From IMG/VR virus record IMGVR_UViG_3300009164_000248, positions 1 to 29,727 of that record: a stretch of 29,727 nt of DNA, one strand, 5' to 3'. The notes beneath the pieces were generated by a model, which saw nothing but the letters and a program-made list of their open reading frames with translations, was not told the origin of the DNA and searched no databases. Below are positions 4,197 to 25,168 of the stretch, piece after piece; position 1 is the stretch's first letter; each line of letters starts with the position of its first letter. The DNA comes from a virus. The position numbers and the translations under genes were made by a program.

Positions 4197-4199
4197 CAA

Positions 4200-6226: not shown

Positions 6227-7159
6227 ATGTCACTATTAAAAATAAAACCATTTATTATAGATGATACAACTGCAAGTGATGCATTTGTACGGGCTAATGC
6301 AGCCTTTGGCCAAGCAAACACGGCAGCTGCATTTGCAAATGGTTCCTTTGATAGAGCTAATGCGGCATTCAATACAGCCAATAATGCAACCGACAGCTGG
6401 GTTAGAACACAGGCCAACAACGCATTTAATTCAGCCAACTCCGGTGCAACATTTGCTAATGCATCATTTACAACCGCAAACTCCGGTGCAACATTTGCTA
6501 ACGGTGCTTTCTTAAGAGCAAATTCAAGTTACGAACAATCAAACAATGCAGCCTCATTTGCTAATGGTGCCTTTGCTTCTGTTAATTCTAGTGCCTCATT
6601 TGCGAACAGTTCTTTCATAACAGCCAATGCAGCTGCATCGTTTGCTAACGGTGCTTTCGATAGGGCTAATTCCAGTTATGGAGTTGCAAACACAGGTTCT
6701 TCTTTTGCAAATGGTGCTTTCTTACAAGCAAACAATGCAGGTTCATTTGCTAACGGTGCTTTTGTAACTGCAAATGCTGCGGCCAGTTTTGCTAATGGTG
6801 CTTTTGATAGGGCTAATGCTGCCTATGCTCAGGCAAATACAGGTTCCACAGATACATGGGTGAGAAACCAAGCCAACAATGCATACAGTACTGCTAATGC
6901 AGCCTTCTTAAAAGCAAATACTGGTGGAGCAGGCATCACCTATACTGCATCAAACACTGCACCAACAAGTCCGAAAGTGGGAGACCAATGGTACATAATT
7001 GCAACAGACATTCTTTATGAATATATAAACGATGGCACAAGTAACAATTGGGTAGATATAGTATCACCAACATTTTCAAACACAACTACTGCATCTTCAA
7101 CAACAAGTTCCACAAATAATGCCAGGGTTGTTGGGTATTCATTAGTATTCGGAGGATAA
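6227..7159 (+). CDS. Tail fibre protein with heptad-repeat shaft (first gene of duplicated block 1)
   Basis: 310 residues. A short lead (MSLLKIKPFIIDDTTAS) is followed at ~20-235 by an almost pure shaft of 7- and 14-residue repeats (FANGAFDRANAAAS type) with two WVRxQANNAxxxAN blocks. Residues ~240-280 form a small domain seen in many phage fibres (PTSPKVGDQWYII...LYEYINDGTSNNWVDIVSP). The tip is RVVGYSLVFGG, related to but distinct from the LSPFLLMGG tips. No late-promoter octamer is visible in the 21 bp before it. It has no LDTLNELATALGNDANF motif, unlike its block-2 counterpart at 15903, so the two fibres have different internal modules. Trimeric stalk role inferred from repeat periodicity. 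Confidence 0.8.
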   Translation: MSLLKIKPFIIDDTTASDAFVRANAAFGQANTAAAFANGSFDRANAAFNTANNATDSWVRTQANNAFNSANSGATFANASFTTANSGATFANGAFLRANSSYEQSNNAASFANGAFASVNSSASFANSSFITANAAASFANGAFDRANSSYGVANTGSSFANGAFLQANNAGSFANGAFVTANAAASFANGAFDRANAAYAQANTGSTDTWVRNQANNAYSTANAAFLKANTGGAGITYTASNTAPTSPKVGDQWYIIATDILYEYINDGTSNNWVDIVSPTFSNTTTASSTTSSTNNARVVGYSLVFGG

Positions 7160-7160
7160 A

Positions 7161-7517
7161 ATGGCCGCACCAAATTTAATCAGTGCAAATACAATAACAG
7201 GCAAGACTGCCACAGCAAACTGTACAACCGTATCATCAAATGTTATTACTGTTTCAGCTAATACAGTTGTAAAATTAAATTCAATAATTTTTACAAACTA
7301 TAATAACTCAGATGTGGTTTCTGCTAATGCAATAATCAATCGTAGTGGCACAACATATTTCTTAGGTGCAAAAGTTAACGTACCTCCAAATTCAACATTA
7401 GTTTTATTAGGTAAAGATAGTCCAATTTATTTGGAAGAAAATGATGTGTTGCAAACTGTTGTGAGCGCAAACTCAGCAATACACATGTCAGCGGGTTATG
7501 AATTAATTACTATCTAA
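7161..7517 (+). CDS. Divergent ~118-aa beta-rich protein in the connector position
   Basis: 118 residues occupying the slot held elsewhere by the 109-aa family, but diverged. The TVPA and RPAGA motifs are absent. It keeps the general layout: KTATANCTTVSSNVITVSANTVVKLNSIIFTNY in separate strands, then a C-terminal strand pair ending GYELITI. The pattern (valine-rich strands, NRSGTTYFLGAKVNVPPNSTLVLLG) suggests a beta-sandwich and resembles small virion proteins of other phages. GGAGG lies at the upstream fibre's last codons. Its C-terminus lacks the FGSE/GGAG overlap of the other three. The downstream Gly-rich protein also has an unrelated N-terminus, so the pair may have changed together. Function unknown. 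Confidence 0.62.
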   Translation: MAAPNLISANTITGKTATANCTTVSSNVITVSANTVVKLNSIIFTNYNNSDVVSANAIINRSGTTYFLGAKVNVPPNSTLVLLGKDSPIYLEENDVLQTVVSANSAIHMSAGYELITI

Positions 7518-7518
7518 A

Positions 7519-8472
7519 ATGAGAACAAGAAGTAATTTTGGTATCATAGGTACAACACAAACAATATTAGGTAGTTCTAGTGGTGGTGTATACTCTGCTG
7601 ATGACCAAAGAATAGCTAAAGCTGCAGGCAATTGGCCTGCGCCAAGAATCAACATACAAGCACTTATTGTTGCAGGTGGTGGAGGTGGTGGAGGTTCCGT
7701 TAATTATTCGGGAGGCGGCGGTGCTGGTGGATTACTGTATGGTACCATAATAGTTTCAGCTGGAGCATATACTGTTACAGTTGGTGCTGGCGGAGGCACA
7801 AATGCAAGCGGTTCAAACAGTTTAATTACATGTCCATCATCAGTTTCTTTTGTTGCATCTGATGGATCAATTGTCGGCACATCAATTACTGCAATAGGTG
7901 GTGGTCGTGGTGGTTATTATGCCACTTACAGTGGTCTTGGTGGCGATGGTGGTTCTGGTGGTGGCGGTGGTCATGGGTCAAATGCAGGTGGCGCAGGTAC
8001 TGTTGGTCCTCCTAGACAAGGATATGGTGGCGGTACAGGATTCAACGCAGCATCTGCAAGTGCTGGTGCAGGTGGTGGTGCAGGTGGTGCTGGTGCATCA
8101 GGTACAGTAAATAGTAATGGCGCAGCTGGCGGTGTTGGATTATCTTTTAATATATCAGGAACATCAACCTATTATGCAGGCGGTGGTGGTGGCGGTGTAG
8201 AAAATATTAGCGCTTACGCAGGTGGTGCAGGTGGTCTTGGTGGTGGCGGACGTGGCGCTGGTAACAATGGCGGTCAACAAAATGGCACAGTTAATACAGG
8301 CGGTGGTGCCGGTGGCGGTGGTAGTGCCACTACAGGTGGTTCTGGTATTGTAATCATACGGTTTGCAGATTCTAATCCGGCAGTTACAGCAACATCAGGT
8401 TCACCAACATACACAGTAGCAGGTGGTTATAGAGTTTATGTATTTAATGCTTCAGGCTCCATTACGTTCTAA
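7519..8472 (+). CDS. Gly-rich putative adhesin, paralogue 3
   Basis: 317 residues. The N-terminal ~48 residues (MRTRSNFGIIGTTQTILGSS, then VYSADDQRIAKAAGNWPAP) differ completely from the KSSxxSLS-type leads of the other Gly-rich proteins. The Gly-rich domain runs from ALIVAGGGGGGG (~52) to GSGIVIIRFAD (~285) and includes YTVTVGAGGG and YYAGGGGGG segments nearly superimposable on those at 1443. A C-terminal module, SGSPTYTV...GYRVYVFNASGSITF, matches the end of the 1443 protein. It therefore combines a different attachment segment with a similar tip. The gene follows the 118-aa gene after 1 bp and its stop overlaps the octamer at 8471. Adhesin role inferred. Confidence 0.73.
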   Translation: MRTRSNFGIIGTTQTILGSSSGGVYSADDQRIAKAAGNWPAPRINIQALIVAGGGGGGGSVNYSGGGGAGGLLYGTIIVSAGAYTVTVGAGGGTNASGSNSLITCPSSVSFVASDGSIVGTSITAIGGGRGGYYATYSGLGGDGGSGGGGGHGSNAGGAGTVGPPRQGYGGGTGFNAASASAGAGGGAGGAGASGTVNSNGAAGGVGLSFNISGTSTYYAGGGGGGVENISAYAGGAGGLGGGGRGAGNNGGQQNGTVNTGGGAGGGGSATTGGSGIVIIRFADSNPAVTATSGSPTYTVAGGYRVYVFNASGSITF

Positions 8473-8478
8473 TAAATA
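8471..8478 (+). promoter_or_regulatory. Late-promoter-like octamer AATAAATA
   Basis: One mismatch to TATAAATA. It overlaps the stop codon of the Gly-rich gene and ends 26 bp before the ATG at 8505, a plausible distance for a short leader. It would start the sub-unit made of the second fibre, the ~100-aa protein and the two ~400-aa proteins. Confidence 0.45.
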
Positions 8479-8504
8479 TTCATAATACAACAGAGATATT
8501 TTAA

Positions 8505-9392
8505 ATGGCATTTCCAACCAGTCCAACAAATGGCCAACAGGCCACAGTAAATGGTATAACATATACCTATAGTACCACTTATGGTACATGGACAAGAGTT
8601 CCTACCGATGCAGGACAAGCATCAGCAACAGCAAATGCAGCTTTCATACAGGCAAACGCAGCATTTTCTCAAGCAAACAATTCTACAGACACATGGGTAA
8701 GAGGTCAAGCCAACAATGCATATAACACTGCAAACTCAGCAGGTTCATTTGCTAATGGTTCTTTTACTGTGGCCAATTCGGCAGCCAGTTTTGCTAATGG
8801 TGCCTTCACAACATCCAATTCAGCTGCAAGTTTTGCTAATGGTTCTTTTATAACTGCCAACTCAGCAGCCAGTTTTGCCAATGGTTCCTTTGTAACAGCC
8901 AATTCTGGTGCAATCTTTGCTAATGGTTCTTTTATAACTGCCAACTCAGCAGCCAGTTTTGCCAATGGTTCCTTTGTAACAGCCAATTCTGGTGCAATCT
9001 TTGCTAACGCAGCTTTTGCTAGAGCAAATTCGGCTTACAATGCTGCCAATACTGGCGGCGGTTCATCTGTAGATACATATATAAGTTTGACAATGACAGG
9101 TGCAATCACTTCACCATACACAGGCACAAGTAGGTTTTATCCACCTAGAGCAATGTCATTAACTACAGTATATGCCAATTTATCAACTGCGGCCACTTCT
9201 GGTAATTTCACGTACATTATTAAGAAAAATGGAACAAGTATAGGTAATACATTTACCATTACTCAGAATCAAACTGTTATGACTCCGGCAAATATAAGTG
9301 TAAGTTTGGCGACTACCGACTATCTAACTTTAGATGTGAACGGTGCATCCGCAACAGACTTATTTGTTAGAATTAAATATACAAACACCTAA
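8505..9392 (+). CDS. Tail fibre protein, second C-terminal class
   Basis: 295 residues. Residues 1-38 form a small lead domain (FPTSPTNGQQATVNGITYTY...WTRVP) seen in several phage fibres. Residues ~42-186 are the heptad shaft, including an exactly repeated 28-residue block. Residues ~188-295 form a beta-sandwich-like C-terminal domain with KKNGTSIGN, TTDYLTLDV and the end DLFVRIKYTNT. The same C-terminal domain, diverged, ends the 214-aa fibre at 18272. Both fibres of this class precede a ~100-aa gene and a ~400-aa gene rather than the 109-aa/Gly-rich pair. The sequence before the ATG lacks a strong ribosome site. The tip domain may bind the next proteins or a receptor directly. Confidence 0.78.
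   Translation: MAFPTSPTNGQQATVNGITYTYSTTYGTWTRVPTDAGQASATANAAFIQANAAFSQANNSTDTWVRGQANNAYNTANSAGSFANGSFTVANSAASFANGAFTTSNSAASFANGSFITANSAASFANGSFVTANSGAIFANGSFITANSAASFANGSFVTANSGAIFANAAFARANSAYNAANTGGGSSVDTYISLTMTGAITSPYTGTSRFYPPRAMSLTTVYANLSTAATSGNFTYIIKKNGTSIGNTFTITQNQTVMTPANISVSLATTDYLTLDVNGASATDLFVRIKYTNT
8832..9007 (+). repeat. Exact 84-bp tandem duplication in a fibre shaft
   Basis: Bases 8832-8923 are identical to 8916-9007, an offset of 84 bp with a 92-bp exact match. The unit is 28 codons, four heptads, so the shaft is lengthened in frame. Other shaft repeats here share protein pattern but differ at many synonymous sites, so this copy appears recent. Confidence 0.9.
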
Positions 9393-9402
9393 ATATAAGA
9401 CT

Positions 9403-9717
9403 ATGACAAATTACTATTTCAAACAAATTTTTTCAATTTATTCGGGTTATGTCTATGAATTTACAGGTAATGTTCCTGATGGTGAATCACCTTTATCATA
9501 TATTACCGAACAATTTGTGGCCGAACACGGTAACGGACAAATTCAAACTGCTGTTACTCAAGTACCAGCTGGTACATATTACTTTCATAGTTTTGAAAAT
9601 TTAGAGTCTGTAAAATTTATTCAGGTCGCAGATTTAAGCTATCAAGAACCAATAATTCCTGATCCAGTACCTGATGCAAATACAGAAGTACAATCAGTAT
9701 CACAAGGAGACCAGTAA
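9403..9717 (+). CDS. ~104-aa protein of unknown function, class-2 fibre partner
   Basis: I place the start at the ATG at 9403, just after the fibre stop; an alternative upstream start at 9343 would overlap the fibre by 50 bp and add an unconserved leader. 104 residues. The first ~70 have aromatic and beta-rich segments (YYFKQIFSIYSGYVYEFTG, GTYYFHSFENLESVKFIQV). The last ~30 are acidic and Pro-rich (PIIPDPVPDANTEVQ), probably disordered. It sits in the same slot as the 94-aa protein at 18920, which also ends in an acidic Pro-rich tail; direct sequence similarity is weak. The stop overlaps the next ATG (TAATG). It may be a fibre chaperone or connector for the ~400-aa proteins; this rests on position only. 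Confidence 0.6.
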   Translation: MTNYYFKQIFSIYSGYVYEFTGNVPDGESPLSYITEQFVAEHGNGQIQTAVTQVPAGTYYFHSFENLESVKFIQVADLSYQEPIIPDPVPDANTEVQSVSQGDQ

Positions 9718-10919
9718 TGTTAGTTAGATATAGAATGAACAGTACGGCTAACGTTACCACCATGAGAACTGATATAGATAATATCATTAGAGGTTTGGCC
9801 AATACGACAGCACATTTAAGTGTAGGTTGCGATACAGCAAACACAGTATTCTATGGAACATATCCTTCTGCAAAATATGCTCGAGTAGGAACTGCTGCAG
9901 GTTCAGACACTTACAGTAAAATACATAACGATTATGGCGACCTCGATTACATCAGATTATCTTATGATGCAACAAAATTAACAACCATAACACTTGCAAA
10001 CACATACACATCTGGTACCGATACTCTAGTTAATTCCAGAGAAGTAGTAAAGTATGAATCTATTGGATACATACAAGCAAAATTTTCTGGTACAACAATG
10101 ACAGTTAATGCTGTTGGCAATTTAAAACTTGGATACACACTGGCTGTTGGTGATATAATCGGTCCAAATTATGATAGATATTATTCTACTGGAACCGCAG
10201 GCGCCAACTTCAGTGGCGCCATGTGTTTGATGTTTCCAAAAGCTGGCGAATTTGCATTAGGAAATAGTGGCGCAAATTCTTATGATCCAAATAGTGTTTC
10301 TCCATCTACAACAATTTCATCACAAATAACTGGCACAACTGGATCAACCGGCACTTATGTTACGTCAACAACAAACGAGATGAACTCAGTATTTGGATTT
10401 ACTTACTGGCAAGTTTTTAGACCTGTAAGTGCCAACATATTACCAAACACATTTAATGCTTATGGTCTACAACACGGTATCGACATTGTTATAAGTAGTA
10501 AAATGCTTGTTATAAGTAGTCCATACAATGCAACATCTATTGGTATTTTTGACATTGGTAAAAATGGTGTGTCAAGAATATATACAGGCGAATCATTAAT
10601 GGTAGGCATTGATTTAGAATCTGAATATTTCGGTGGAACCAACGCCTATAGATATAAGTTTACAACTAATTCTTATGGCCCACAGGCCGCCATGAGCCTG
10701 GTCAGTACACCACCATTAAGAAAATATAATGAAAATGGTTCTGTAGTTGTAATAGAAAATCCAGTGTTTATTAATCACGAAGATAACGGCAACGTATTGT
10801 CTGTAATTTATGGATTATATAAAATTCCTGAAAATATATACGGAGCACACACAACTTACGTTGACGGAAGCAGTGTTCGAAGATTCACAATTAATGATTA
10901 TTCATTACTAACGGAGTAA
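9717..10919 (+). CDS. ~400-aa virion protein, member 1 of a four-member family
   Basis: 400 residues, no assigned family. The N-terminus (MLVRYRMNSTANVTTMRTDIDNIIRGLAN) resembles the start of the 435-aa protein in being a strand followed by a helix that ends IIRGLAN/FLRAIRAI. The body is Thr/Ser/Asn/Tyr-rich with beta character, and a central MFPKAGEFALGNSGANSYDP segment is followed by FGFTYWQVFRP. The C-terminal quarter holds GLYKIPENIYGAHTTYVDGS and ends FTINDYSLLTE. Translation is coupled to the 104-aa gene by TAATG. The matching slot in block 2 holds the 416-aa protein at 19204. Likely a distal virion component, perhaps the receptor-binding partner of class-2 fibres; this is inferred from block structure. 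Confidence 0.62.
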   Translation: MLVRYRMNSTANVTTMRTDIDNIIRGLANTTAHLSVGCDTANTVFYGTYPSAKYARVGTAAGSDTYSKIHNDYGDLDYIRLSYDATKLTTITLANTYTSGTDTLVNSREVVKYESIGYIQAKFSGTTMTVNAVGNLKLGYTLAVGDIIGPNYDRYYSTGTAGANFSGAMCLMFPKAGEFALGNSGANSYDPNSVSPSTTISSQITGTTGSTGTYVTSTTNEMNSVFGFTYWQVFRPVSANILPNTFNAYGLQHGIDIVISSKMLVISSPYNATSIGIFDIGKNGVSRIYTGESLMVGIDLESEYFGGTNAYRYKFTTNSYGPQAAMSLVSTPPLRKYNENGSVVVIENPVFINHEDNGNVLSVIYGLYKIPENIYGAHTTYVDGSSVRRFTINDYSLLTE

Positions 10920-10924
10920 AAAAT

Positions 10925-12232
10925 ATGTTATGTAGAATTAACCCATCAGTTAACGGTACAGTAACCGACCAAAAAGCAGTTGCTATAAATTTTTTACGAG
11001 CAATACGAGCTATAACTACTGCAGCTGCAAACTCAACACCAAGTGCTTTATCACAAACTGCACCGGCAGTTACACCTGCTGGAGCAGATGTAATCACACA
11101 GGTTATCAGTAATGCTGAAGGTGGTGGTTGGGCGAACACCGCTAATACAAACATAACTTCAGACTATAGTACAAGTTTTGCTTCGCCTTATACATTAGAC
11201 CTATCTAGAGATAGTGGTAAGGGTGCATATCCGTTTCGCAAGTTGAGTTTTAGAACTAATGTGAATCATCTTTTCAATGGAGCATATACAACTTATCCTC
11301 ACATATTAGTTTCACACGGTTTCAATACAACTGCTAATGCGGGTGGAAATTATTTGTTAGGTACAGCTCAATATATGCCTAGTTATGGTGGAGAATATAC
11401 TAGTAACCGATTTGATGTTAATAGAACAGATACTTCAACCACTGCATATAATTATACTCCATGGGGACCAGGAGTACAAGGAGGTGAATGGTTGGTGGCT
11501 AGCACTGAACGATATTTTATATTAATGTCAGGCGGCCTATCATCAACGGCAGGTTATGGACCTGGTGGTATGATGTATGTCGGACTAAGAACTACTCAAG
11601 CTTGGGAAGATTCATATAACGATAATCCACCGATAGCAAGTGTTTGTTATGATGCCTCGGCCTATTACGACCAATCTTGTGGATCAAATGCAAGTATGTG
11701 GACAAGAACTCTTTCAAGTTCAGGCACAGTAAACAATTCACCATTTTGGTATCGAATAAACAACCAAGTCAACAACGCCACATCTGCCGCTGTGCTTGAC
11801 CTATCAGGCAACTATATCGATCCACTTTCAGCTTATTCCTATTCAACATCACAGTGGAATACTTACATCAGAGATCCTAGATACCATTGGGCAAATGAGA
11901 TGCAAGTACCAATGTGTCCTTCATCAGGATTTTCCAATTTTAAATCAAAAATCAGAGGAAATTATCAAGTAACTGGTCCAACAATGGATCCATCGACAGG
12001 CACTTTTGTTCCTCCTGCATTTCCAATTGTATTTGCAAAGAACACACAAGGCGCAACAACTGCTGGCGGTACAGCAATAGGATTATATAAGAGTATGAGT
12101 GGATCAGATACTTTCTTACAACAATACTACACACCAGGTCAAACATTCGTGGTTAATAATGAAGCATATTATGCATACGTAATAGGAAATGACAGTCTAT
12201 ATAGAGACATGTTCTTGGTAAGAAAAGCTTAA
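10925..12232 (+). CDS. ~435-aa virion protein, member 2 of a four-member family
   Basis: 435 residues. The N-terminus (NPSVNGTVTDQKAVAINFLR) leads into a Ser/Thr/Tyr/Gly-rich beta body containing WGPGVQGGEWLVASTERYFI and GGLSSTAGYGPGGMMYVG. Its C-terminus (QQYYTPGQTFVVNNEAYYAY, ending DMFLVRKA) matches the pattern GDYYPGDEFSYGGKTYKI...RVGIAIPKE at the end of the proteins at 19204 and 20457: an aromatic turn, PGxxF, a Y-x-hydrophobic strand, then an Arg-led last strand. This makes it a distant paralogue of them. GGAG precedes the ATG by 8 bp. Members 1 and 2 lie side by side as do 3 and 4, suggesting paired subunits. No enzymatic motif seen. Confidence 0.65.
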   Translation: MLCRINPSVNGTVTDQKAVAINFLRAIRAITTAAANSTPSALSQTAPAVTPAGADVITQVISNAEGGGWANTANTNITSDYSTSFASPYTLDLSRDSGKGAYPFRKLSFRTNVNHLFNGAYTTYPHILVSHGFNTTANAGGNYLLGTAQYMPSYGGEYTSNRFDVNRTDTSTTAYNYTPWGPGVQGGEWLVASTERYFILMSGGLSSTAGYGPGGMMYVGLRTTQAWEDSYNDNPPIASVCYDASAYYDQSCGSNASMWTRTLSSSGTVNNSPFWYRINNQVNNATSAAVLDLSGNYIDPLSAYSYSTSQWNTYIRDPRYHWANEMQVPMCPSSGFSNFKSKIRGNYQVTGPTMDPSTGTFVPPAFPIVFAKNTQGATTAGGTAIGLYKSMSGSDTFLQQYYTPGQTFVVNNEAYYAYVIGNDSLYRDMFLVRKA

Positions 12233-12235
12233 CAG

Positions 12236-12253
12236 GAGTTTTTTTGAAAACTC
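12236..12253 (+). other. Small perfect hairpin after the 435-aa gene
   Basis: GAGTTTT (12236-12242) pairs with AAAACTC (12247-12253) around a 4-base loop, just after the stop codon at 12230-12232. The left arm contains part of an AGGAG ribosome-site-like motif (12234-12238). No U-run follows, so it is not a typical terminator. It could tune translation of the small reading frame at 12254 or of the giant gene at 12275, or protect the mRNA 3' end. Confidence 0.35.
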
Positions 12254-12274
12254 ATGTGGTTGATTAAAAAATAA

Positions 12275-15200
12275 ATGGCAAATGTATTAGCGACTTATGG
12301 ATTTCCAGATAGTTACGAGTTAATCGTAGCTGGTTCAGCATCGGTAAAATATGTAAGTGCTTCGGGTAGTGACAGTAATAACGGCAATACGGTAAGCACA
12401 CCGTACTTGACCATTGCAGCGGCATTAAGTGCAACAAGCGGTACAGCAACATCAGTAACCATTGTCATTCTTGCTGGCACATATAATATATCAGCAACCG
12501 CATTAGCTAATGGTTATGGCGCAGCATGTATAAGTGACGGTGGGAATCCTAGAATATTTGTTTGTTCTGCCGGTCAAGTAATCATAAACTGTACTGATGC
12601 AACCGCAGTACGAGATTTTGCGCCACTCAATTTTGTAAATTCTAGTTCGGCCATTTATGGCGCCATATTAAAGCGCAACAACAGTGGACGAACAACCAGT
12701 TATACAGTATCAGTTTTAAATGATGAGTCTGTAAACTTCAGAGGTTCGGCATATAATACAATATTCCAAGAAGTAAATTCCAACAATGCTTGGTCAGTAC
12801 AATATGATAACGGTGGTAATCCAACAGGTAAAGTATATAACTCTACGTTCTATAATGGAGCAAATGCCGCTGCTGATTATTCTGGCGGTGCAGGTTTAGT
12901 AATAACCGACACAGTATTCAATACGACAACATCAAGTTCTGCAACATTTACTGGTTGTTTGACCAGCCAAACAGTTAATGCAACAACTTATGTAACAACA
13001 GGCGTAACAACTAAGGGTGTTTATTCTGGTACATACGCATGGAATGGTACCACCACACCATTGGTCAATGGATTTTTAAATCCAGCAAACACAGTTTTTA
13101 GTGGAACAACTATCAATTTCACTTTGTATGATAGTAATTCAGCAAATGTATCTTATACAATAACTGGCGTAACAACAGCAGATTTAAACGGCACTTCTTT
13201 AACAGGTTACTTTACTTCAGCATCAGGTGCTTTCACACTTAGTGTACCAACAAAAGTCAAAGTTGCTGAAACAAAAACACTATCAATCACAACAGGAACA
13301 TATTCAGCAAATGTTGTAATCACTCCGGGACTTAGTTTTGAAGCACTAATTGTAGCTGGCGGTGGTAGTGGTGGTAACCACAATACTACTAATGCGAACG
13401 GCGGCGGCGGCGCTGGTGGTGTTCTTAGAGGATCCATTTCAACGGCCGGCGGTGTTTTTGCTGTGGCTGTTGGCGCAGGCGGTGCAGCAATTGCTAATGC
13501 TACTGCTCTCAATGGAGTTAAAGGTACTGATTCTGGTCTAGGTAGTTATGTTGCAGAAGGTGGTGGCGGTGGTGGTAGTTCAGGTGTAGGTTTTTCATCG
13601 TCAAGTCAGAACGGTGGTTCAGGCGGCGGTAATGCTTACTATCAATCTGGTGGCGGCCTAGCGAACAATAACCTTACAGCAGGAACATTAACTGTACTAG
13701 GTAATAACGGCGGATCAACATCAACAACTTGGACTGGCGCAGGCGGTGGTGGTGCTGGAGCAGTCGGTCAAGCCGGAACAGGATCAAGTCCTGGTGGCAA
13801 TGGCGGCATTGGTATTACTAATGATTGGACAGGAACCACTCGTTATCTGGCTGGCGGCGGTGGCGGTGGCGGTAACAGTAGTGAACGAGCAGGTGATGGA
13901 TTTTATGGTGGCGGCCGAGGTTCTGGTACAACCACATATTACAGTTATAATGTCTATACCAATGAAATAAATGCTACTACTAAAGGTAGCGGAATACCAA
14001 CTGCTGTAGTCAATACAGGTGGCGGCGGAGGCGGCGGATCTTATTGGGCATCTAACGGCGGATGGTCTACTGGTTCTGGAGCAGGTGGTTCTGGTATAGT
14101 AATTATACAGTATGCAGGAAGTCAAAAAGCGACAGGCGGTACTGTCACAACAGTTGGATCAAATACAGTTCATACATTCACTACTAGTGGAACATTTACA
14201 GTTCTTGGTGGTGGTTTATCAGCAAGCGCAAACACTTTATATTGGGGTGATAGTTTAACACTTACATATTCTGATGACTTAGCTGATGGAAGTAATGCTG
14301 CATACACAATATCCGGAGTAAGTAGTTCACAAATTAATAATGCATCACTTACTGGCAATTTTACTTTTGCTAACAGTACATCACAATTAATTATACAAAC
14401 GACACCAACAACTGCTACAGCAAACACATTAACTATTACTGTTGGTTCTTACACACTAAACATACCTATAACATTTTTAATATCTTTTACAGGACCAATT
14501 GGTGGATACTGGGGTGCAAATTTAACATACACAGCTGCGACAAGAGGTCTAAGTAATAACACATTGATTCCTTATGCCATCACAGGTAGTAATGTTACTA
14601 GTTCACAGTTAAATAGTTTGCCTTTGACTGGAACAATTACGAATATTGTTTCCGCACTACCATTGGGTAGTAATTATTTTGATGGTACTACCGATTATCT
14701 AAGTGTTACCAACGGTTCTGGTTTTCAGTTTGGCACAGGTGATTTTACTATTGAATGTTGGATTAAAACTACAGACCAAGCATTTGATATTATTAGTCAG
14801 CATGCATCAGGTGGAACTAATTGGAATTGGTTGATTATCAATGGTAATATATATTGGCAATATTCAAATGCTGGTGCTAATCTATTTTCTATTGCACTCA
14901 GTTCTTTGACTTCAAATCCAACTAATGGTTCTTGGACACATATTGCTGTTACTAGAACATCTGGCACAATGAAATTTTGGATTAATGGAACAGGTCAATC
15001 TACAACTGCTGCAGATAGTACTAATTATGCTGGTGCAGCTGCATTGGTTAGAATAGGTGGTTCTCAATATGCTGATTTTCAAGGAAACATTTCTAATTTA
15101 AGAGTCGTTAAAGGTCTTGCAGTTTATACATCAAACTTTACTCCTTCTGTAACACCATTATTTGCAACACAAAGTTCTGGAACAGGTATCGCTGCAATCA

Positions 15201-15853: not shown

Positions 15854-15874
15854 AATTTTCAACAAAAAAAGTGA

Positions 15875-15882
15875 AATAAATA
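15875..15882 (+). promoter_or_regulatory. Late-promoter-like octamer AATAAATA
   Basis: One mismatch to TATAAATA, in one of the longest intergenic gaps of the array (49 bp), ending 20 bp before the ATG at 15903. It marks the start of duplicated block 2, between the giant gene and the 351-aa fibre. Confidence 0.5.
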
Positions 15883-15902
15883 GAATGAAAAGGTTATAAA
15901 GA

Positions 15903-16958: not shown

Positions 16959-16967
16959 GGAAAAAAT

Positions 16968-17297
16968 ATGGCAGCTTTATATAAAATTTTAGGTCAAGCA
17001 AATCCAGCAGCAACAACAGCAACGACTGTATATACTGTGCCTGCTTTAACAAATACAGTATGTTCCACAATCTCAGTCTGTAATACTGGTGCAACATCCG
17101 CAACTTTCAGAATTGCCTTTAGACCAACAGGTGAATCTTTGGCACTAAAACATTATATCAATTATGATACAACTGTGGCAGGCAACGATTCAATGTACAT
17201 TTCATTAGGTGTCACTCTAGCAACAACCGATGTTGTTACTGTGTATGCAAGTAATGCCAATTTATGTTTCTCTATGTTTGGTACGGAGATTGTTTAA
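16968..17297 (+). CDS. ~110-aa beta-rich virion protein, paralogue 4 (putative fibre connector)
   Basis: 109 residues, close to the proteins at 1114 and 4200 (YKILGQANPAATTATTVYTV, FRIAFRPTGES, YINYDTTVAGNDSMYISLGV, TTDVVTVYASNANLCFSMFG). It starts 9 bp after the fibre stop with AAGGAAA as ribosome site, as at 1114. Its last codons carry GGAG at 17285-17288, exactly 8 bp before the overlapping ATG of the Gly-rich gene. Three Cys residues occur, unusual for this family in the window. Role inferred only from constant position between fibre and Gly-rich protein. Confidence 0.72.
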   Translation: MAALYKILGQANPAATTATTVYTVPALTNTVCSTISVCNTGATSATFRIAFRPTGESLALKHYINYDTTVAGNDSMYISLGVTLATTDVVTVYASNANLCFSMFGTEIV

Positions 17298-18253: not shown

Positions 18254-18261
18254 CTCATCTA

Positions 18262-18269
18262 AATAAATA
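18262..18269 (+). promoter_or_regulatory. Late-promoter-like octamer, badly placed
   Basis: AATAAATA occurs at the same position in block 2 as the octamer at 8471 in block 1, before a class-2 fibre. It ends only 2 bp before the ATG at 18272, so a transcript from it would start inside the gene. It may be a decayed promoter, or simply AT-rich start context, or serve the next gene at 18920. Confidence 0.25.
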
Positions 18270-18271
18270 TT

Positions 18272-18916
18272 ATGCCATTACAAAAAATTAATCCAACCAG
18301 TTTAGATATATCAAAAGATTTTTCTTTTGCGAATATCAACGTCACTGGAAGTTTGATAGTCAATACTGTTAATATTGGCCAAACAATTCTTTCAGGAACA
18401 GTTGCATCTAATGCAGCCTTTGACCGTGCCAATGCGGCTTATAATGCAGCTAACACAGCAACAGATACTTGGGTAAGAGGTCAGGCTAATAATGCATTTT
18501 CTGCGGCAAATTCTGGTGCAACTTTTGCCAATGCGGCTTTTGCTAGGGCCAACGCAGCCTATGCACAAGCAAATACTGGTGGTAGTGGTGGCACTACCGC
18601 AGCTTATGTGAAAACATATTATTGGAAAGGTGCATTAACGGAAAACGTTGGCACACTAAGACACTATATACCTCTTGTAACAGCAAACGTAACATCAATT
18701 ACTTCCTATTTGGCTTCTCCAGGTTTAACACAAAGTACAGTTGTTGTTAAAAAGAACGGTACTGTTATAAACACAATAAGATTTGCGGCTGCTGGAACAT
18801 CAAACACACAAACTGGTTTATCAATTCCAGTAACTTCATCAGACTACTTAACAGTTGATATTACACAAAGTAGCAGTGGTTCAGATTTATACATTAACTT
18901 CATATATCAAGGATAA
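18272..18916 (+). CDS. Tail fibre protein, second C-terminal class, short shaft
   Basis: 214 residues. The lead segment INPTSLDISKDFSFANINVT is like that of the 351-aa fibre. The heptad shaft is short (~47-106: NAAFDRANAAYNAANTATDT, then WVRGQANNAFSAANSGATFA), ending in a GGSGG linker. Residues ~110-214 are a beta-sandwich-like domain (VVVKKNGTVINTIRF, TSSDYLTVDI, end DLYINFIYQG) homologous to the C-terminus of the 295-aa fibre at 8505. The stalk is less than half as long as in that paralogue, so the two fibres would project their tips to different distances. No ribosome site is evident before the ATG. It precedes the 94-aa gene by 3 bp. Confidence 0.76.
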   Translation: MPLQKINPTSLDISKDFSFANINVTGSLIVNTVNIGQTILSGTVASNAAFDRANAAYNAANTATDTWVRGQANNAFSAANSGATFANAAFARANAAYAQANTGGSGGTTAAYVKTYYWKGALTENVGTLRHYIPLVTANVTSITSYLASPGLTQSTVVVKKNGTVINTIRFAAAGTSNTQTGLSIPVTSSDYLTVDITQSSSGSDLYINFIYQG

Positions 18917-18919
18917 GTT

Positions 18920-19204
18920 ATGAGATTCGAAGAAATACAAAACATCTTTCAAACTCCATGGTTGGCACCGTGGCAACATGATTATTATGCAGCAACATTT
19001 TTGGAACCAAAAACAGGCCAAGAATTCTTAGACTATGCATATAGTAAGATTGAAAATCTTTCAGGCATTTGGTATGAAGTGGCTGGTCCAATGGCATATT
19101 TTGTTGTGGTCAAAGGCACTGTAATACCAGAAGATTTTGCTTATGCATTAGCGCAGGTTGATGATGCGCCGGAACAACCTGCACCGGAAGAAGGAACAGA
19201 ATAA
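18920..19204 (+). CDS. 94-aa protein of unknown function, class-2 fibre partner
   Basis: 94 residues. The N-terminal two thirds are Trp/Tyr/Phe-rich (IFQTPWLAPWQHDYYAATF, EFLDYAYSKI, IWYEVAGPMAYFVVV); the C-terminal ~22 are acidic and Pro-rich (QVDDAPEQPAPEEGTE). It lies between a class-2 fibre and a ~400-aa protein, like the 104-aa gene at 9403, and ends with the same TAATG coupling to the next gene. AAGGA lies 6 bp before the ATG, inside the fibre's last codons. A small assembly factor or connector is plausible; no known family recognised. Confidence 0.6.
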   Translation: MRFEEIQNIFQTPWLAPWQHDYYAATFLEPKTGQEFLDYAYSKIENLSGIWYEVAGPMAYFVVVKGTVIPEDFAYALAQVDDAPEQPAPEEGTE

Positions 19205-20454
19205 TGTATATTAAATTAAACTTTACCTCAGACAAATATTTAAATCATATATTTCGTATAGTTAACGAAGTTATCAATACACCTGCAATTGCTAACGTTG
19301 CGTCTTTACAAAGTACTGCAACATCGGGCAATTGGTGGGCAACTTTGTTAACTGGTCTTGATGCAAATACGAGTGAAATTATTAGAACAGGCACTGGTAC
19401 TACAGGACTAACATCAAACACAGTTTCACGATATGCTAAAAATGGAGGTGGTACAAGTTATGCGGACGAACATGCATGGACACTTGAGTTCTCCAATTAT
19501 GATGATAACACTAAAAAATATTATATTCAACATGTTAATGCTTCTGAAGGTGGTTACACATCAACTGTTAGGACAGCCAATGGATTGTCTAGTGGAACAT
19601 TATCAAGTTTAACAAGTCAAGCGATTTCACAATCTGGTACCATAAACACCACTCCAGGCACAGCACCCACATTCAATAATTCAGTAAATTCAGGATCATC
19701 AGGATCTGCTGGTAGTAGCACTAGTGGTTTTTTAAATGTAAGATGTTTCACTATGTATCTAAGTGATAATGCTCTTGTCTGGTGTGCCACAAATGGCAAC
19801 ACATATAACGTTGGATTTGGAAACACTTATTCTGCCAGTACATCATATATTGGTCCATTCATTTATAGTCAATACAACAGATTTGATTACACAAATACCA
19901 ATGCAACATTTATAACTCCATTGATGTTTACAAATTATAATAGAGGTGTAGGTATTGGGTTTGGTGGTGTAGCTGATTGGAATAGAATAGAAAATACTCA
20001 GTATAATACTACCAGTAATTCACATGCATTTAGAGTGTTCAACTTATATAACGCTTATCCATCAACAACTCCTAGTTGGCCAATGGTGTTGCAACCGTAT
20101 GTCAGCTGGGGCGTAGGTTCTAGATACTCACAAGATTCCGCTCTAACAGCCGCAGCAACCGGTGGTGGCACCGTTTCTAATCCAACATACGGTGCAGTTG
20201 TTTTCACAACAACAGCTACACGTTATCCTAGCGCAGATTTAAAAACACAAACATATGGCATGTTACCAATTTCATGGAGAAATTCATACTATTATAATGC
20301 TGGTGGTGATGCCGGAACACAAGGTGGTTGGTATTTATTTAATGGCGATTATTATCCAGGAGATGAATTTTCATATGGTGGAAAAACATACAAAATTTTG
20401 CCGACTTGGACTGGATATACAGACCGTGTTGGTATAGCAATTCCAAAGGAATAA
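19204..20454 (+). CDS. ~416-aa virion protein, member 3 of a four-member family
   Basis: 416 residues. The N-terminus MYIKLNFTSDKYLNHIFRIVNEVINTPAIANVASLQSTATSG (shown in part: IKLNFTSDKY, VINTPAIANVASLQ) is paralogous to the next protein (IKLSFTTNTR, IINTSSITSVSTLQ). The body is beta-rich with FGNTYSASTSYIGPFIYSQY and TNYNRGVGIGFGG, matched downstream by WGSTYSNSTLQGGPFFQTQY and TNQRGTGIGYG. The C-terminus GGWYLFNGDYYPGDEFSYGG...DRVGIAIPKE is nearly superimposable on that of its neighbour. Whole-length paralogy of adjacent genes points to a tandem duplication. Function unknown; position suggests a tail-associated adhesin or baseplate appendage. Confidence 0.68.
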   Translation: MYIKLNFTSDKYLNHIFRIVNEVINTPAIANVASLQSTATSGNWWATLLTGLDANTSEIIRTGTGTTGLTSNTVSRYAKNGGGTSYADEHAWTLEFSNYDDNTKKYYIQHVNASEGGYTSTVRTANGLSSGTLSSLTSQAISQSGTINTTPGTAPTFNNSVNSGSSGSAGSSTSGFLNVRCFTMYLSDNALVWCATNGNTYNVGFGNTYSASTSYIGPFIYSQYNRFDYTNTNATFITPLMFTNYNRGVGIGFGGVADWNRIENTQYNTTSNSHAFRVFNLYNAYPSTTPSWPMVLQPYVSWGVGSRYSQDSALTAAATGGGTVSNPTYGAVVFTTTATRYPSADLKTQTYGMLPISWRNSYYYNAGGDAGTQGGWYLFNGDYYPGDEFSYGGKTYKILPTWTGYTDRVGIAIPKE

Positions 20455-20456
20455 TC

Positions 20457-21677
20457 ATGTTTATTAAATTAAGTTTTACAACAAATACTAGAGTTACAAT
20501 TCCATTAAGGATGTTAGCTGATATCATTAATACTAGTTCTATTACAAGTGTAAGTACATTACAAAGTAGATTTACTTCTGCTAGTTATTCGGCTCCAATA
20601 TATGCAAACTTTGATGCAACAAACAGCACAATTATTAGAACTGTTAATCCAGCAAATACAATTTCTCATATAATGTCCGGTGAAATGGGTTCTAATTACA
20701 TAACATTAACATTAGAACAACCGGTATATGATGCATCTTCTAGTAAAATTTATACACAAATTAGGTCTACTTCGGGAGCAACCCCATATTTTGATATTGG
20801 TACTGCAATTTCAGGTGGAACTATAACGGCTTCGGGAATGCCGGTAACATTTCCTGAAGCTGGCAACGGTAACGCATCAGGTACAACATTGACATTAGGT
20901 GGAAACAATTATGGTTCTAGCGCTGTTTGTTTGTCGGGATCCAATGGTTTTGATAACATTAGAACATTTTGGGCTTATGTAACAGATAAATGTTTCTTTT
21001 GGGCTGTTACTAACAATAATAGTTATAATGCTGGTTGGGGTTCGACATATTCAAACTCAACACTTCAAGGCGGGCCGTTTTTCCAAACACAATACACTCG
21101 TTATGATTATCACAACCTTGACAGTAACGGAATTTATCCAGTAATATATACAAACCAAAGAGGTACAGGTATTGGATATGGAACAACAAATGATTTAACT
21201 ACTGTTCAAAATTTAAATTATGTCACCACGAGCATTTTGACACCTTTGCGAGCTCACAGTATGGTGTCAGCGTTACCACAAGTTGGTACATCATGGCCAA
21301 AAATTTATAATCAACAGGTTCATATGACTATGGCAGGTAGAAGTTCAAGTCATTATGCCTTGAATGCTGGCCAAACTCTCGGAACGGTAACTACTGCTAC
21401 AGCAGCGACATACGCAGGTGCCATCAACACCACGGCAAGTTATCGTTTTCCAAGTGCCAATTTGGGAGGAACAGGTTTTGGTTTAATGCCATTTGGTTGG
21501 GAAGCAAATTATTATGGCAATCACGGCGGTAATGCTAGTGACCAAAATGGTGTATACATCTTCAATGGTGAGTATACACCTGGAGATACATTCACATATA
21601 ACAATAAAATTTATATGATTTGGCCTATGTATAGTGGTTACAGTAATCGTGTAGGTTTTGCGGTTCCAATGGAATAA
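20457..21677 (+). CDS. ~406-aa virion protein, member 4 of a four-member family
   Basis: 406 residues from the ATG at 20457, 2 bp after the previous stop. An in-frame start at 20406 would overlap the previous gene by ~50 bp and add a segment with no counterpart in the paralogue. It is a full-length paralogue of the 416-aa protein: same N-terminal strand-helix, the central aromatic block NIRTFWAYVTDKCFFWAVTN (paralogue NVRCFTMYLSDNALVWCATN), and the C-terminal GVYIFNGEYTPGDTFTYNN...NRVGFAVPME. The two may form a hetero-oligomer or be alternative tips. I see no catalytic signature. It ends directly before a cupin gene, which block 1 lacks at this place. Confidence 0.68.
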   Translation: MFIKLSFTTNTRVTIPLRMLADIINTSSITSVSTLQSRFTSASYSAPIYANFDATNSTIIRTVNPANTISHIMSGEMGSNYITLTLEQPVYDASSSKIYTQIRSTSGATPYFDIGTAISGGTITASGMPVTFPEAGNGNASGTTLTLGGNNYGSSAVCLSGSNGFDNIRTFWAYVTDKCFFWAVTNNNSYNAGWGSTYSNSTLQGGPFFQTQYTRYDYHNLDSNGIYPVIYTNQRGTGIGYGTTNDLTTVQNLNYVTTSILTPLRAHSMVSALPQVGTSWPKIYNQQVHMTMAGRSSSHYALNAGQTLGTVTTATAATYAGAINTTASYRFPSANLGGTGFGLMPFGWEANYYGNHGGNASDQNGVYIFNGEYTPGDTFTYNNKIYMIWPMYSGYSNRVGFAVPME

Positions 21678-21679
21678 CA

Positions 21680-22048
21680 ATGGCACAACCCAAGATAAAA
21701 ATTGCATGTGTTGCAAATCTCTATACTAGAGAAATGAAATTTGAAAAGGTAGGCGACACTGAATTGGGTCACAAACATCCTTTCAATCACATTACATTTT
21801 TATCTTCAGGTAAATTAAAAGTAGAAACTGAACTTGGTATATCCGAATTTACTGCACCACAAATGATTTTTATTCATAAAGATTATATGCATGAATTAAC
21901 TGCGTTAGAAGATAATACCATGGCCTATTGCATACACGCACTAAGAAACGGTGATGGTGTGGATGATATCATTGACGAAGATATGATTCCAAAAGGCATA
22001 AATGTTCCAGAAATTTTTGATATTGCCAAACTGGTTGTTACGGGATAA
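21680..22048 (+). CDS. Cupin-fold protein 2
   Basis: 122 residues. Motif 1 is GHKHPFNHITFLSSG at ~31-45, with three His that could ligate metal; motif 2 is APQMIFIHKDYMHELTALED at ~57-76, with two more His. The pattern ALED...CIHALRN matches the cupin at 5828 (ALED...CVFALRN), so the two are paralogues about 16 kb apart. The C-terminal ~30 residues differ (MIPKGINVPEIFDIAKLVVTG) and lack the Cys seen in the other. Start at the ATG 2 bp after the previous stop. It sits just before the 764-aa giant. Enzymatic, sensory or purely structural roles are all open. Confidence 0.72.
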   Translation: MAQPKIKIACVANLYTREMKFEKVGDTELGHKHPFNHITFLSSGKLKVETELGISEFTAPQMIFIHKDYMHELTALEDNTMAYCIHALRNGDGVDDIIDEDMIPKGINVPEIFDIAKLVVTG

Positions 22049-22050
22049 TC

Positions 22051-24345
22051 ATGGCAAATCAATTAGCCTCATATAATTTTCCAGACACATATTCTACCCT
22101 AGTCAGCGACTTCGTTGGCACGGTAAAATATGTTGCTAGCACAGGAAGTAATTCAAATGATGGAAGTTCAGTATCAACTCCATATTTGACTATTGATTAT
22201 GCATACAGTCAGACAAGTGCTACCGCAAACGTGATGTTTGTTGTGCTGCAAGGCACATATACAATGACGGCTTTATCTGTATCAGGTAGCAATTCAGGTG
22301 TATTACGAGATGGTGGAAATAAAAGAGTTTTTGTTTGTTGTCCAGGTAGAACAATCATTCAATGGACTGCCAGTACGGCTGACCGTGATTGCTCGATGGC
22401 ACAATTTACTAATGCCGGTAGTGCGGTTTATGGTGCCATTCTAAAAAGAAATAATAACGGCAGAACAACAAGTTACACAGTAGCATATTTCAGAAGTTAT
22501 GATGGTGCATTAAAAGGTAACTTCTATAATTGTGTATTCTCAGAAACAAACGCAAATAATGCTTGGACTTACCAATACGACAACTATGGTGCGGCAAACT
22601 TTGCAATAAGAAACTGTACATTTTATAACGGCGCCGCAGCCGGAGCTAGTTATAGCGGTGGCACCGGCGCTTTAACAATTGATTCTGTCTTTAATACCAC
22701 ATGTGCGACTGTTGGGACAGAAACCAGCGTTTTAAAATCACAAACAGTTAATGCAACTACGTATGTAACAACAGGTGTATCTACTGCTGGTGTATATTCC
22801 GGTACATATTCATGGAGTGCAACCACAACATTTGACGCAGTTATAGTAACCGGAACAACAGGTTCACCAACTGTAATAAGGTCAGGATCATACACATACT
22901 ATAAATTCGCAAATTCAGGTGGCATAACTTTTGGTAATTCTGGCGCACCTATTGAGGTTCTAACAGTTGCTGGTGGCGGTGGTGGTGTTGGTGCTTATGG
23001 CGGTAATGCTGTCCCTTCAGGTGGTGGAGGTGCAGGTGGTGTAAATTATCATCCGTCATTTTCAATATCTGCGGCCACATATGCAATTACAGTTGGTGCA
23101 GGTGGTGCCAAAGTGGCCACAGCAGGTTCCGCAATAACTGGTGGAACAGGTAGTGATTCTATCTTTGGTGCTAATACTATTATTGCAAAAGGTGGCGGAG
23201 GTGGTGGTTGGTACACAACAGGTGGCACGGGTGGTTCTGGCGGTGGCGGTGGTTACAATGGTGCTGCTGGTGGTAGCACTAATCAATCCAGTTCCGGTGT
23301 AAACCCAGCAGGCAGTATATATTATGGAACTGCTGGTGGCACAGGTGCTACCATCAGTACAGGTTCTGGTGGCGGTGGCGGTGCAGGTGGCGCAGGTATT
23401 GCGGCATCAGGTACATCAGGAAGTGCTGGCGGTGTTGGTGCAAGTAACAATTCAACATTATTGGCGGTAGTAAGTGCTGGTGAATTATCAGGCGGAGTAA
23501 GATACATTGCTGGCGGTGGTGGCGGTGGTGGTTCATATGCTAATGGTGGAACTGGTGGCGCTGGCGGCCTAGGTGGCGGTGGTATAGGTGGATACAATGG
23601 CGCTAACGCTGGTGCAGGTGTTGTTAATACAGGTGGCGGTGGTGGTGGTTCACCAAACACATACTTGGGTGGTGATGGTGGTTCTGGTATTGTTATTCTT
23701 AAAGTTTATACTGGTATACCAACAGACCCCGGATTATATTTGAGTGATTCATCTGGTAGTATCAACTCAGGCAATTCAATAACAGCTACACTAAGAACAT
23801 CCGGTATTGCAAATAGTGTAACAGTTCCTTACACCATTAGTGGTGTAACGTCTGCACAAATTAATGGTGGTTCATTGACTGGTAATTTTACAATAACCAG
23901 TAATACCGGCACACTAACAATAAACACCAATCCAAATATTGTTTCGGCCAATTTGGTTATTTCTGCAAATGGATATACAACAAATACCTTAATATCATAC
24001 GCTGTATCAATAATTACAGAAACTATATTGATTGGGACTACATCAAATACGGCCAACTATACTAATCCAATTGCAGGACAAATGAATGTGATTCAAAGTC
24101 TTGTTACTTCAAACATAGTTTCTGATGCAAATATATACACAGTTTCTGGCCAGATGAATATCAATCAAAGTGTAGTCACCTCAAATATAGTTTCTGATGC
24201 AAATCTGTTATTGGTAGCTACCAATGGTATGCAAAACGCCGCAAGCAAATCATATACGACAATGACAAACAGTTTTAATGGCAGAATAGACTCTGATATT
24301 ATCAAAGTCTTCGGAGAAATCGCACAAAGAGAATATTGGATGTAA
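22051..24345 (+). CDS. Giant mosaic virion protein: beta-helix, Gly-rich and Ig-like domains
   Basis: 764 residues, paralogue of the 1192-aa protein. Residues ~24-260 resemble a beta-helix of the DUF1565 type (KYVASTGSNSNDGSSVSTPY, LQGTYTMTAL, AVYGAILKRNNNGRTTSYTV, IRNCTFYNG, VNATTYVTTGVSTAGVYSGT). A short module at ~268-292 (GSPTVIRSGSYTYYKFANSG) precedes a Gly-rich domain, ~298-552, ending GSGIVILKVY. An Ig-like repeat (YTISGVTSAQINGGSLTGNF) follows at ~560-655. The last ~110 contain a short repeat (VTSNIVSDAN twice) and a probably helical end (FNGRIDSDIIKVFGEIAQRE). It has no LamG domain, unlike the 1192-aa paralogue, so the tip domains have been exchanged while the N-terminal attachment and helix are kept. 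Probable adhesin or glycan-acting spike; catalysis unproven. Confidence 0.75.
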   Translation: MANQLASYNFPDTYSTLVSDFVGTVKYVASTGSNSNDGSSVSTPYLTIDYAYSQTSATANVMFVVLQGTYTMTALSVSGSNSGVLRDGGNKRVFVCCPGRTIIQWTASTADRDCSMAQFTNAGSAVYGAILKRNNNGRTTSYTVAYFRSYDGALKGNFYNCVFSETNANNAWTYQYDNYGAANFAIRNCTFYNGAAAGASYSGGTGALTIDSVFNTTCATVGTETSVLKSQTVNATTYVTTGVSTAGVYSGTYSWSATTTFDAVIVTGTTGSPTVIRSGSYTYYKFANSGGITFGNSGAPIEVLTVAGGGGGVGAYGGNAVPSGGGGAGGVNYHPSFSISAATYAITVGAGGAKVATAGSAITGGTGSDSIFGANTIIAKGGGGGGWYTTGGTGGSGGGGGYNGAAGGSTNQSSSGVNPAGSIYYGTAGGTGATISTGSGGGGGAGGAGIAASGTSGSAGGVGASNNSTLLAVVSAGELSGGVRYIAGGGGGGGSYANGGTGGAGGLGGGGIGGYNGANAGAGVVNTGGGGGGSPNTYLGGDGGSGIVILKVYTGIPTDPGLYLSDSSGSINSGNSITATLRTSGIANSVTVPYTISGVTSAQINGGSLTGNFTITSNTGTLTINTNPNIVSANLVISANGYTTNTLISYAVSIITETILIGTTSNTANYTNPIAGQMNVIQSLVTSNIVSDANIYTVSGQMNINQSVVTSNIVSDANLLLVATNGMQNAASKSYTTMTNSFNGRIDSDIIKVFGEIAQREYWM

Positions 24346-25167: not shown

Positions 25168-25168
25168 T

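Follow-up and report, generated by a model that had tools for sequence, protein, structure and literature searches.

Two parallel blocks of adhesin genes in an uncultured T4-like myophage, read as probable sister cores within a shuffled cassette array

Genes of the two blocks

The window analysed here, a 29,727-nucleotide stretch of viral DNA (IMG/VR record IMGVR_UViG_3300009164_000248), corresponds to bases 62875-92601 of the 179,754-base viral contig G001 and is part of the hypervariable host-recognition region, just upstream of gp13/gp14, of an uncultured T4-like myophage. It carries two successive runs of adhesin-like genes, block A (6227-15853) and block B (15903-24345), which a first-pass annotation of the window took for one ancestral eight-gene block duplicated in tandem. 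The reading frames are present within the limits given by that annotation and in the order it described. The correspondence in gene order was confirmed; a tandem duplication of all eight genes was not supported. Genes a to c, f to h and j, those of the two blocks and gp13/gp14 are read from the plus strand, and relatives are cited by contig (G) or locus (L) number.

Block A opens with a fibre gene, A1 (6227-7159), which encodes a docking N-terminus, a repeat shaft and a C-terminal domain of its own. It is followed by a 118-amino acid (aa) protein of the MAAPN subfamily (A2, 7161-7517), a glycine-rich (Gly-rich) protein (A3, 7519-8472; PF21722, E 2e-17) and a second fibre (A4, 8505-9392). The C-terminal domain of A4, at residues ~186-295, is common to A4 and B4 and was given the name tip4 in this work. 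The small partner of the A core, A5 (9403-9717, 104 aa from the more likely start at 9403), belongs to a family of nine distinct rows. The two genes of the A ~400-aa pair, A6 (9717-10919) and A7 (10925-12232), come next, and the block closes with the giant A8 (12275-15853), made up of a domain shared with B8 (named beta-helix in the first-pass annotation), Gly-rich, LamG and C-terminal parts.

Block B has the same order, ie a first fibre (B1, 15903-16958), a ~110-aa protein (B2, 16968-17297), a Gly-rich protein (B3, 17264-18253; PF21722, E 8e-17), a second fibre with a tip4 C-terminal domain (B4, 18272-18916), the 94-aa partner of the B core (B5, 18920-19204), the B ~400-aa pair (B6, 19204-20454, and B7, 20457-21677, the latter 406 aa from the more likely start at 20457) and a giant (B8, 22051-24345). 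B8 consists of the N-terminal domain shared with A8, a Gly-rich part and a C-terminal part that stands alone in relatives. The gene between B7 and B8, Bc (21680-22048), matched the PHROG family 'short tail fiber protein' (E 3e-8) and had no match in Pfam; 'cupin' is the label of the first-pass annotation.

Comparison of matching slots

Some slots are deeply related. The C-termini of the second fibres, A4 and B4, are homologous (32% identity, hhalign 100%), and A3 and B3 both belong to Gly_rich_2. For the first fibres, said to be clear paralogues, this held for the common repeat shaft (71% over 87 aa by BLAST), while their N-terminal peptides and C-terminal domains fell into different profiles. 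A2 and B2 gave no match by BLAST or by thin profiles; distant homology appeared once iterated families were compared (hhalign 99.7-99.8%), with the two proteins in different well-supported clades. No relation was detected between A5 and B5 (hhalign 0.2-0.3%), a pair already described as weak. The ~400-aa pairs had no BLAST match across the blocks; the thin-profile comparison of their families was negative, and the signal was still weak with larger families (hhalign 3-19%), although the B6 model and a low-confidence A7 model match the same fold, as described below. The giants are 54% identical over the N-terminal 260 aa and mosaic beyond it. DNA similarity between the blocks was confined to short pieces, the longest being 306 bases at 67%. 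The second block does contain the one additional cupin-like gene ascribed to it, but another, j (5828-6205; weak PHROG matches only), lies directly 5' of block A and is 42% identical to Bc; a scan with j gave 80 loci, the best 11 of which were mapped one by one.

The triplet of fibre, ~110-aa protein and Gly-rich protein is repeated twice more upstream of block A, as a-b-c (1-2408) and f-g-h (3927-5422). Gene a (1-1104) is the C-terminal 367 aa of a 1417-aa repeat-shaft fibre that starts before the window, with B1 as its best match in the window. The ~110-aa protein b (1114-1443) is of the subfamily of g and B2 (55% identity), its nearest row being L059 at 81%, and c (1443-2408) is Gly-rich (phrog_2295, E 4e-45). 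In the second triplet, f (3927-4196) is an 89-aa short fibre-like protein (phrog_9648 tail protein, E 3e-14), g (4200-4529) is a ~110-aa protein similar to b and B2, and h (4529-5422) is Gly-rich (phrog_2295, E 1e-16). In the all-against-all comparison B1 and B2 resembled a and b at least as well as A1 and A2, and B2 was 55-56% identical to b and g while having no BLAST match to A2. The genes in matching slots are not, as a set, nearest paralogues of each other.

Wherever a tree was made, matching slots were closer to outside phages than to one another, the outcome that the first-pass annotation had named as refuting a duplication: A2 was nearest L054 and B2 nearest L150/L152 in the tree of the 110-aa proteins, the A4 and B4 tips were each nearest to outside phages, and the same was true of the B8 N-terminus. 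Any ancient duplication would produce some of this pattern, as sister strains are always closer. Stronger evidence against duplication of a block comes from the chimeric giants, the reversed order of the cores and the discordant divergence of the cores between the same pair of phages, which are given below.

Fused and split fibres

The closest relatives, G002, G003 and G004 (gp14 99-100% identical), do not have the eight-gene arrangement. In place of block B each has a single fibre with the B1 N-terminus and the B4 C-terminus, followed by B5, B6, B7 and then a short gene that equals the B8 end; B2, B3, the cupin-like gene and the N-terminal giant are absent from this place. The short gene was considered as a deletion remnant and the idea was dropped, as a GTG after the B7 stop can start a complete small gene. 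Block A of G003 and G004 likewise has one fibre, A1 at its N-terminus and A4 at its C-terminus, and then A5, A6, A7 and A8; the G002 contig starts inside the fused A fibre.

The A1-type N-terminus was sought in 270 loci and found on 14 contigs, three of which (L183, L191, L211) end before the end of the fibre. Eight of the 11 informative contigs have the fused state, with the A1 N-terminus joined to tip4 and no A2-A3 between, and two (the window record and the near-identical L137) are split. In the eleventh, G006, this N-terminus is on a B1-type fibre, and no A core occurs in its layout (L036). The block B set also comprised 14 contigs, 12 from the scan with B5 together with L147 and L137, and leaves out five with distant B5 genes (L123-L126, L136). 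Two (L088, L017) begin inside the fibre; among the 12 informative ones the B1 N-terminus is fused to tip4 in seven, the split state is again that of the window and L137, and three have other N-termini (A4-type in L023, a contig lacking upstream sequence, and different ones in L120 and L121). The eight-gene likeness was seen in one phage.

The block A junction could be located from a change of parent sequence. The G003 A fibre follows A1 (98.8% over nucleotides 91-667; 88% over the first 90) up to a 17-bp repeat, CAAGCCAACAATGCATA, and resembles A4 beyond it; at the protein level, residues 1-226 of A1 are 97% identical to the G003 fused fibre. The repeat is exact and in the same codon phase in A1 (6869-6885, in a shaft linker, the left junction of the A cassette) and in A4 (8706-8722, the right junction). 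When the window was joined by script across the 1,837 bases between the repeat copies, an in-frame 442-aa fibre resulted that was 95.9% identical over 386 residues to that of G003, apart from one repeat gap of ~56 residues. The neighbouring genes f to j and A5 of G003 are 89-96% identical to those of the window. As the shaft repeats of A1 and A4 have further in-phase matches of 17-20 bp in common, it is the change of parent, and not the repeat alone, that marks the junction. The exact pattern occurs three times in the window, the third copy (27400) being in the gene of a 580-aa protein, without obvious relevance.

Partner genes and chimeric giants

The gene order of 38 loci from 37 contigs was compared with that of the window. 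Fibres with an A1- or B1-type end were often followed by a 110-aa gene and then by a Gly-rich or a ~380-aa gene, and tip4-ended fibres by genes of the A5-A6-A7 type, the B5-B6-B7 type, or the Gly-rich type. A tree of tip4 domains was built from 33 rows. All 11 tips that have B5- or B6-type genes behind them fall into a single clade (100/100). A second clade of 11 (100/100) has nine tips followed by a Gly-rich gene and two by unassigned DNA. The remaining rows, 10 tips with A-type partners and one from an Alteromonas phage, do not form a single supported clade as drawn. Tip and partners thus appear to travel together. The Alteromonas row is from phage vB_AmeP-R22Y (L158:5967-9632), where the tip4 domain (36% identity) belongs to a fibre of 676 aa, and the next genes are a 277-aa open reading frame of no assigned family and one for a LamG protein.

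The cores and giants are also found in other combinations. In L120 and L121 the B core comes first and the A core second, the reverse of the window. Giants are chimeric, with a B8-type N-terminus on an A8-type tail in L144/L145 and in L153. In the tree of giant N-termini B8 groups with L121, L144, L151 and L153 (87/93) and A8 with L148, L013 and L115 (96/99), L156 and L120 being long branches. The approximately unbiased (AU) test rejected the A8 group plus B8 (p 0.0004, an optimistic value, as the group was named after the tree had been seen).

Divergence of the two cores

Two of the contigs carrying both cores are distant from the window phage: the gp23-type capsid proteins of G013 (L120) and G014 (L121) are 33% identical to that of G001, compared to 86-95% for G008, G010 and G012. 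A search for gp14 in G013, a 68-kb contig, and in G014 gave no match. Between L121 and the window, six of seven B parts were 55-87% identical (tip 58, B5 65, B6 55, B7 64, cupin-like 87 and giant N-terminus 71%); the B8 tail was 39%, and three A parts were 34-41%. Similarly, six B parts of L120 were 52-70% and four A parts 27-44% identical. In G003 the pattern is reversed, the DNA identity being 94% for A6 and 90% for A7, and 78% for B6 and 73% for B7. From this opposite divergence we conclude that the A and B cores differ in their history, and that transfer of the B core between lineages is probable. The 186-kb contig G014 (L121, L122) has the A and B cores near 97-118 kb and, as a second group near 14-35 kb, four more genes of the B6/B7 type.

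Predicted fold of the ~400-aa proteins

A good model was obtained for B6 (predicted local distance difference test, pLDDT, 86; predicted template modelling score, pTM, 0.90). In Foldseek, chains 8rk3_G and 8rk3_K of the JBD30 baseplate ranked first and second (E 9e-5 and 0.03), and comparison with 8rk3_K gave a VIA Z of 17.1 over 275 aligned residues at 4.1 Å, the next entry having 3.6. Its best match among viral structures was an uncharacterised phage protein (33% identical, TM-score 0.84-0.87). The top solved match of the low-confidence A7 model was 8rk3_G, with Z 11.4 over 247 residues at 4.3 Å and 4.8 for the next row. Rows below JBD30 had Z <5, with many viral spike and lectin domains, and were given no weight. 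From residue ranges and lengths, chain K fits JBD30 gp47 (318 aa) and chain G fits gp48 (307 aa; NC_020198). According to the published account (PMC11445458), gp47 and gp48 are alike in fold and pair as heterodimers, three of which make up an arm that embraces the type IV pilus.

B6 and B7 are 35% identical to each other, and the profiles of A6 and A7 did not match each other (hhalign 0.2%). The ~400-aa pairs probably have the fold of the JBD30 arm, as judged from a good prediction for B6, a poor one for A7, homology to B6 for B7 and position for A6. By analogy, it is proposed that they act like the gp47/gp48 arm. Like gp47 and gp48, B6 and B7 are adjacent genes, with probably similar folds. 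JBD30, however, is a siphophage with one annotated pair, whereas the window phage is T4-like and has two pairs downstream of tip4 fibres, its proteins being ~100 aa longer. The prediction gives a first structural lead for these unannotated ~400-aa families, and points to the use in T4-like phages, too, of filament-gripping arms of the kind found in a siphophage.

Two other forms of these genes were observed. In L136 (40-11296; gp14 72% identical) eight open reading frames within some 11 kb belong to the B6/B7 family; one of them is partial and another carries an inserted LamG-like domain. The A6 homologue of G004 (L100:871-2724) has 617 aa, with inserted stretches compared to the 400-aa form.

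Origin of the two cores

The explanation we favour, with a probability of about 0.7, is that two old sister adhesin cores lie inside a shuffled cassette array of host-recognition genes. The array would contain two kinds of cassette. The first would consist of a fibre (docking N-terminus, repeat shaft and C-terminal domain), a ~110-aa protein and a Gly-rich protein, and the second of a fibre ending in tip4 on the same docking and shaft plan, a small protein, a ~400-aa pair and a giant. The 'blocks' would then be two members of the second kind, the A core and the B core, related to each other from far back. Recombination within the repetitive shafts would have inserted a first-kind cassette into the core fibre genes, or removed it from them in relatives, and giant domains and the cupin-like gene would move separately from the cores. 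The A2-A3 and B2-B3 cassettes may have been gained here or lost in relatives; gain in the window lineage is the simpler reading because the split state is found in a single lineage. Each adhesin set would sit on a repeat-shaft fibre of the virion, and its ~400-aa pair may form a heterodimeric arm like that of JBD30 gp47/gp48, gripping a surface filament such as a pilus, and the tip, Gly-rich and LamG domains may bind envelope sugars or proteins. Such a phage would present a number of adhesins together and could vary them by exchanging cassettes. The modular array itself, the fused and split fibres, the chimeric giants and the discordant divergence are read directly from sequence. The two parallel adhesion complexes of the first-pass annotation are retained to the extent that two adhesin sets are encoded, with cores that share ancestry or predicted fold; they would not be copies of one block.

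Several observations weigh against this explanation. The 38 loci were hand-picked. In L045 an A1-type fibre end is followed by a 110-aa gene, a third gene and a tip4 fibre with a Gly-rich partner, which resembles the split order, and L033 is similar, so the split arrangement as such is not unique to the window. The block B junction is not sharp: G003 departs from B1 near nucleotide 240 and enters B4 near nucleotide 420, in the shaft, and no exact repeat marks the change-over, though B1 and B4 share a 26-bp in-phase repeat elsewhere. As regards the arm fold, Foldseek gave B6 modest TM-scores against the JBD30 chains (0.33-0.48) with a single E-value below 0.001, and the A7 model is poor (mean pLDDT 49). 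The window pairs showed no sequence similarity to gp47/gp48 or to their PHROG (phrog_687), no sequence profile connects A6, A7 or B6 to gp47/gp48, and the A7 and B6 families gave no match to Protein Data Bank chains at E 0.001.

Two accounts of how the cores arose are compatible with the favoured explanation. A small core, the tip4 fibre and ~400-aa pair, may have been duplicated long ago within one phage lineage and the rest added later; we place this at somewhat less than an even chance. It would account for the homology of the tips, the shared predicted fold and the presence of both cores in L120 and L121 too, but it has to accommodate the lack of a detected relation between A5 and B5, and a B core whose similarity between distant phages far exceeds that of the A core, so that it has probably moved between lineages. 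The other account, independent acquisition from different phages with the likeness due to a common adhesin grammar only, is given about the same chance. That tip4 fibres occur with three kinds of partner gene and that the domain is present in an Alteromonas phage fit it, as does the discordant divergence; the occurrence of both cores together in three lineages (the window group, L120 and L121) would require repeated joint acquisition or one old event.

Tandem duplication of the complete eight-gene block, with divergence and later loss of pieces in relatives, is improbable. The common gene order, the homologous tips, 110-aa proteins and giant N-termini and the probable relation of the ~400-aa pairs by predicted fold would all follow from it. 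Against these stand A5 and B5, which show no relation, the different clades of the 110-aa proteins, giant N-termini that are not sisters (by the AU test with its post hoc group), and the genes b, g and a, whose likeness to B2 and B1 equals or exceeds that of A2 and A1. Furthermore, in most of the informative relatives the same genes are missing from both blocks, and the block does not occur as a unit; the two cores diverge discordantly. Diversification by a reverse-transcriptase system or an invertible switch, which the repeated adhesin genes with variable ends might suggest, is very improbable: a diversity-generating retroelement was rejected as none of 12 records, several of which are fragments, had an RVT_1 match, and no search for inversion was made.

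Returning to the sister cores, the duplication story is replaced by a testable rule, ie that a fibre tip goes with particular partner genes and that the sets are exchanged within repetitive shafts. A bolder form of it is at present doubtful: that a T4-like phage displays two JBD30-type filament-gripping arms (L136 possibly more) as plug-in cassettes, each with a cognate tip4 fibre and small adaptor, and that these cassettes cross between lineages with far-diverged capsid proteins by in-frame recombination at conserved shaft linkers. If true, one virion would gain several alternative pilus or filament receptors.

Genome context and known systems

The border of the adhesin region is formed by the neck genes gp13 and gp14 (24391-26050), which, with the tail-sheath stabiliser gp15, were recognised by PHROG match at the right of the window. 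Shaft-repeat genes span about 41 to 87 kb of G001 and reach gp13. At the opposite border of this fibre-rich island, the content of which is variable among relatives, is a 1044-aa gene with baseplate-wedge matches, and G001 has baseplate genes and a long-tail-fibre-like gene upstream of the window. The nearest named relatives of gp14 are those of cyanophages (35-37% identical in the best 25 rows), and 338 relatives were found in IMG/VR, the best 80 being 75-100% identical. A megablast of window bases 1-24999 gave no match, and A6, A7, B6 and B8 had no relative in the named phage records at the sensitivity used.

The host recognition cluster (HRC) of pelagimyophages (PMC7029224) lies between VrlC and gp14, has a mean length of 44.6 kb and is a large variable island of tail-fibre genes; glycosyltransferases are common in the HRC of pelagimyophages and cyanomyophages. 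The window resembles it as a variable fibre-gene island in the structural region that ends at a neck gene. It differs in having fibre-plus-partner cassettes, split and fused fibre states and JBD30-like pairs, which do not figure in the part of that account consulted. The type of array is known; the literature searched, which mostly lacked subscription journals, showed no report of the cassette grammar, of split and fused fibres or of JBD30-like pairs in a T4-like phage, and this is weak evidence of novelty. Genes 20-21 of the Pontimonas phage phiPsal1 (MG835450) encode an 86-aa protein and then one of ~110 aa that has 51% identity to b, which recalls the order of f and g. However, phiPsal1 is a 31-kb phage, the f profile did not match its 86-aa protein, and its next annotated genes carry no Gly-rich label.

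Neighbouring genes

To the right of gp15 the window contains the gene of the 580-aa protein (27085-28827), followed by that of a 137-aa protein, and a further gene, the G001 copy of which has a match to the terminase family. For the 580-aa protein, phrog_677 (baseplate wedge tail fibre connector, E 2e-12) was matched by the N-terminal part, and Pfam matches were sub-threshold only. A further copy of the 110-aa family, the fifth in the examined part of G001, lies just 5' of the 1417-aa fibre (L094:17397-17720). The 126-aa protein i (5432-5812, phrog_7759) recurs in several relatives beside Gly-rich genes and just before gp13.

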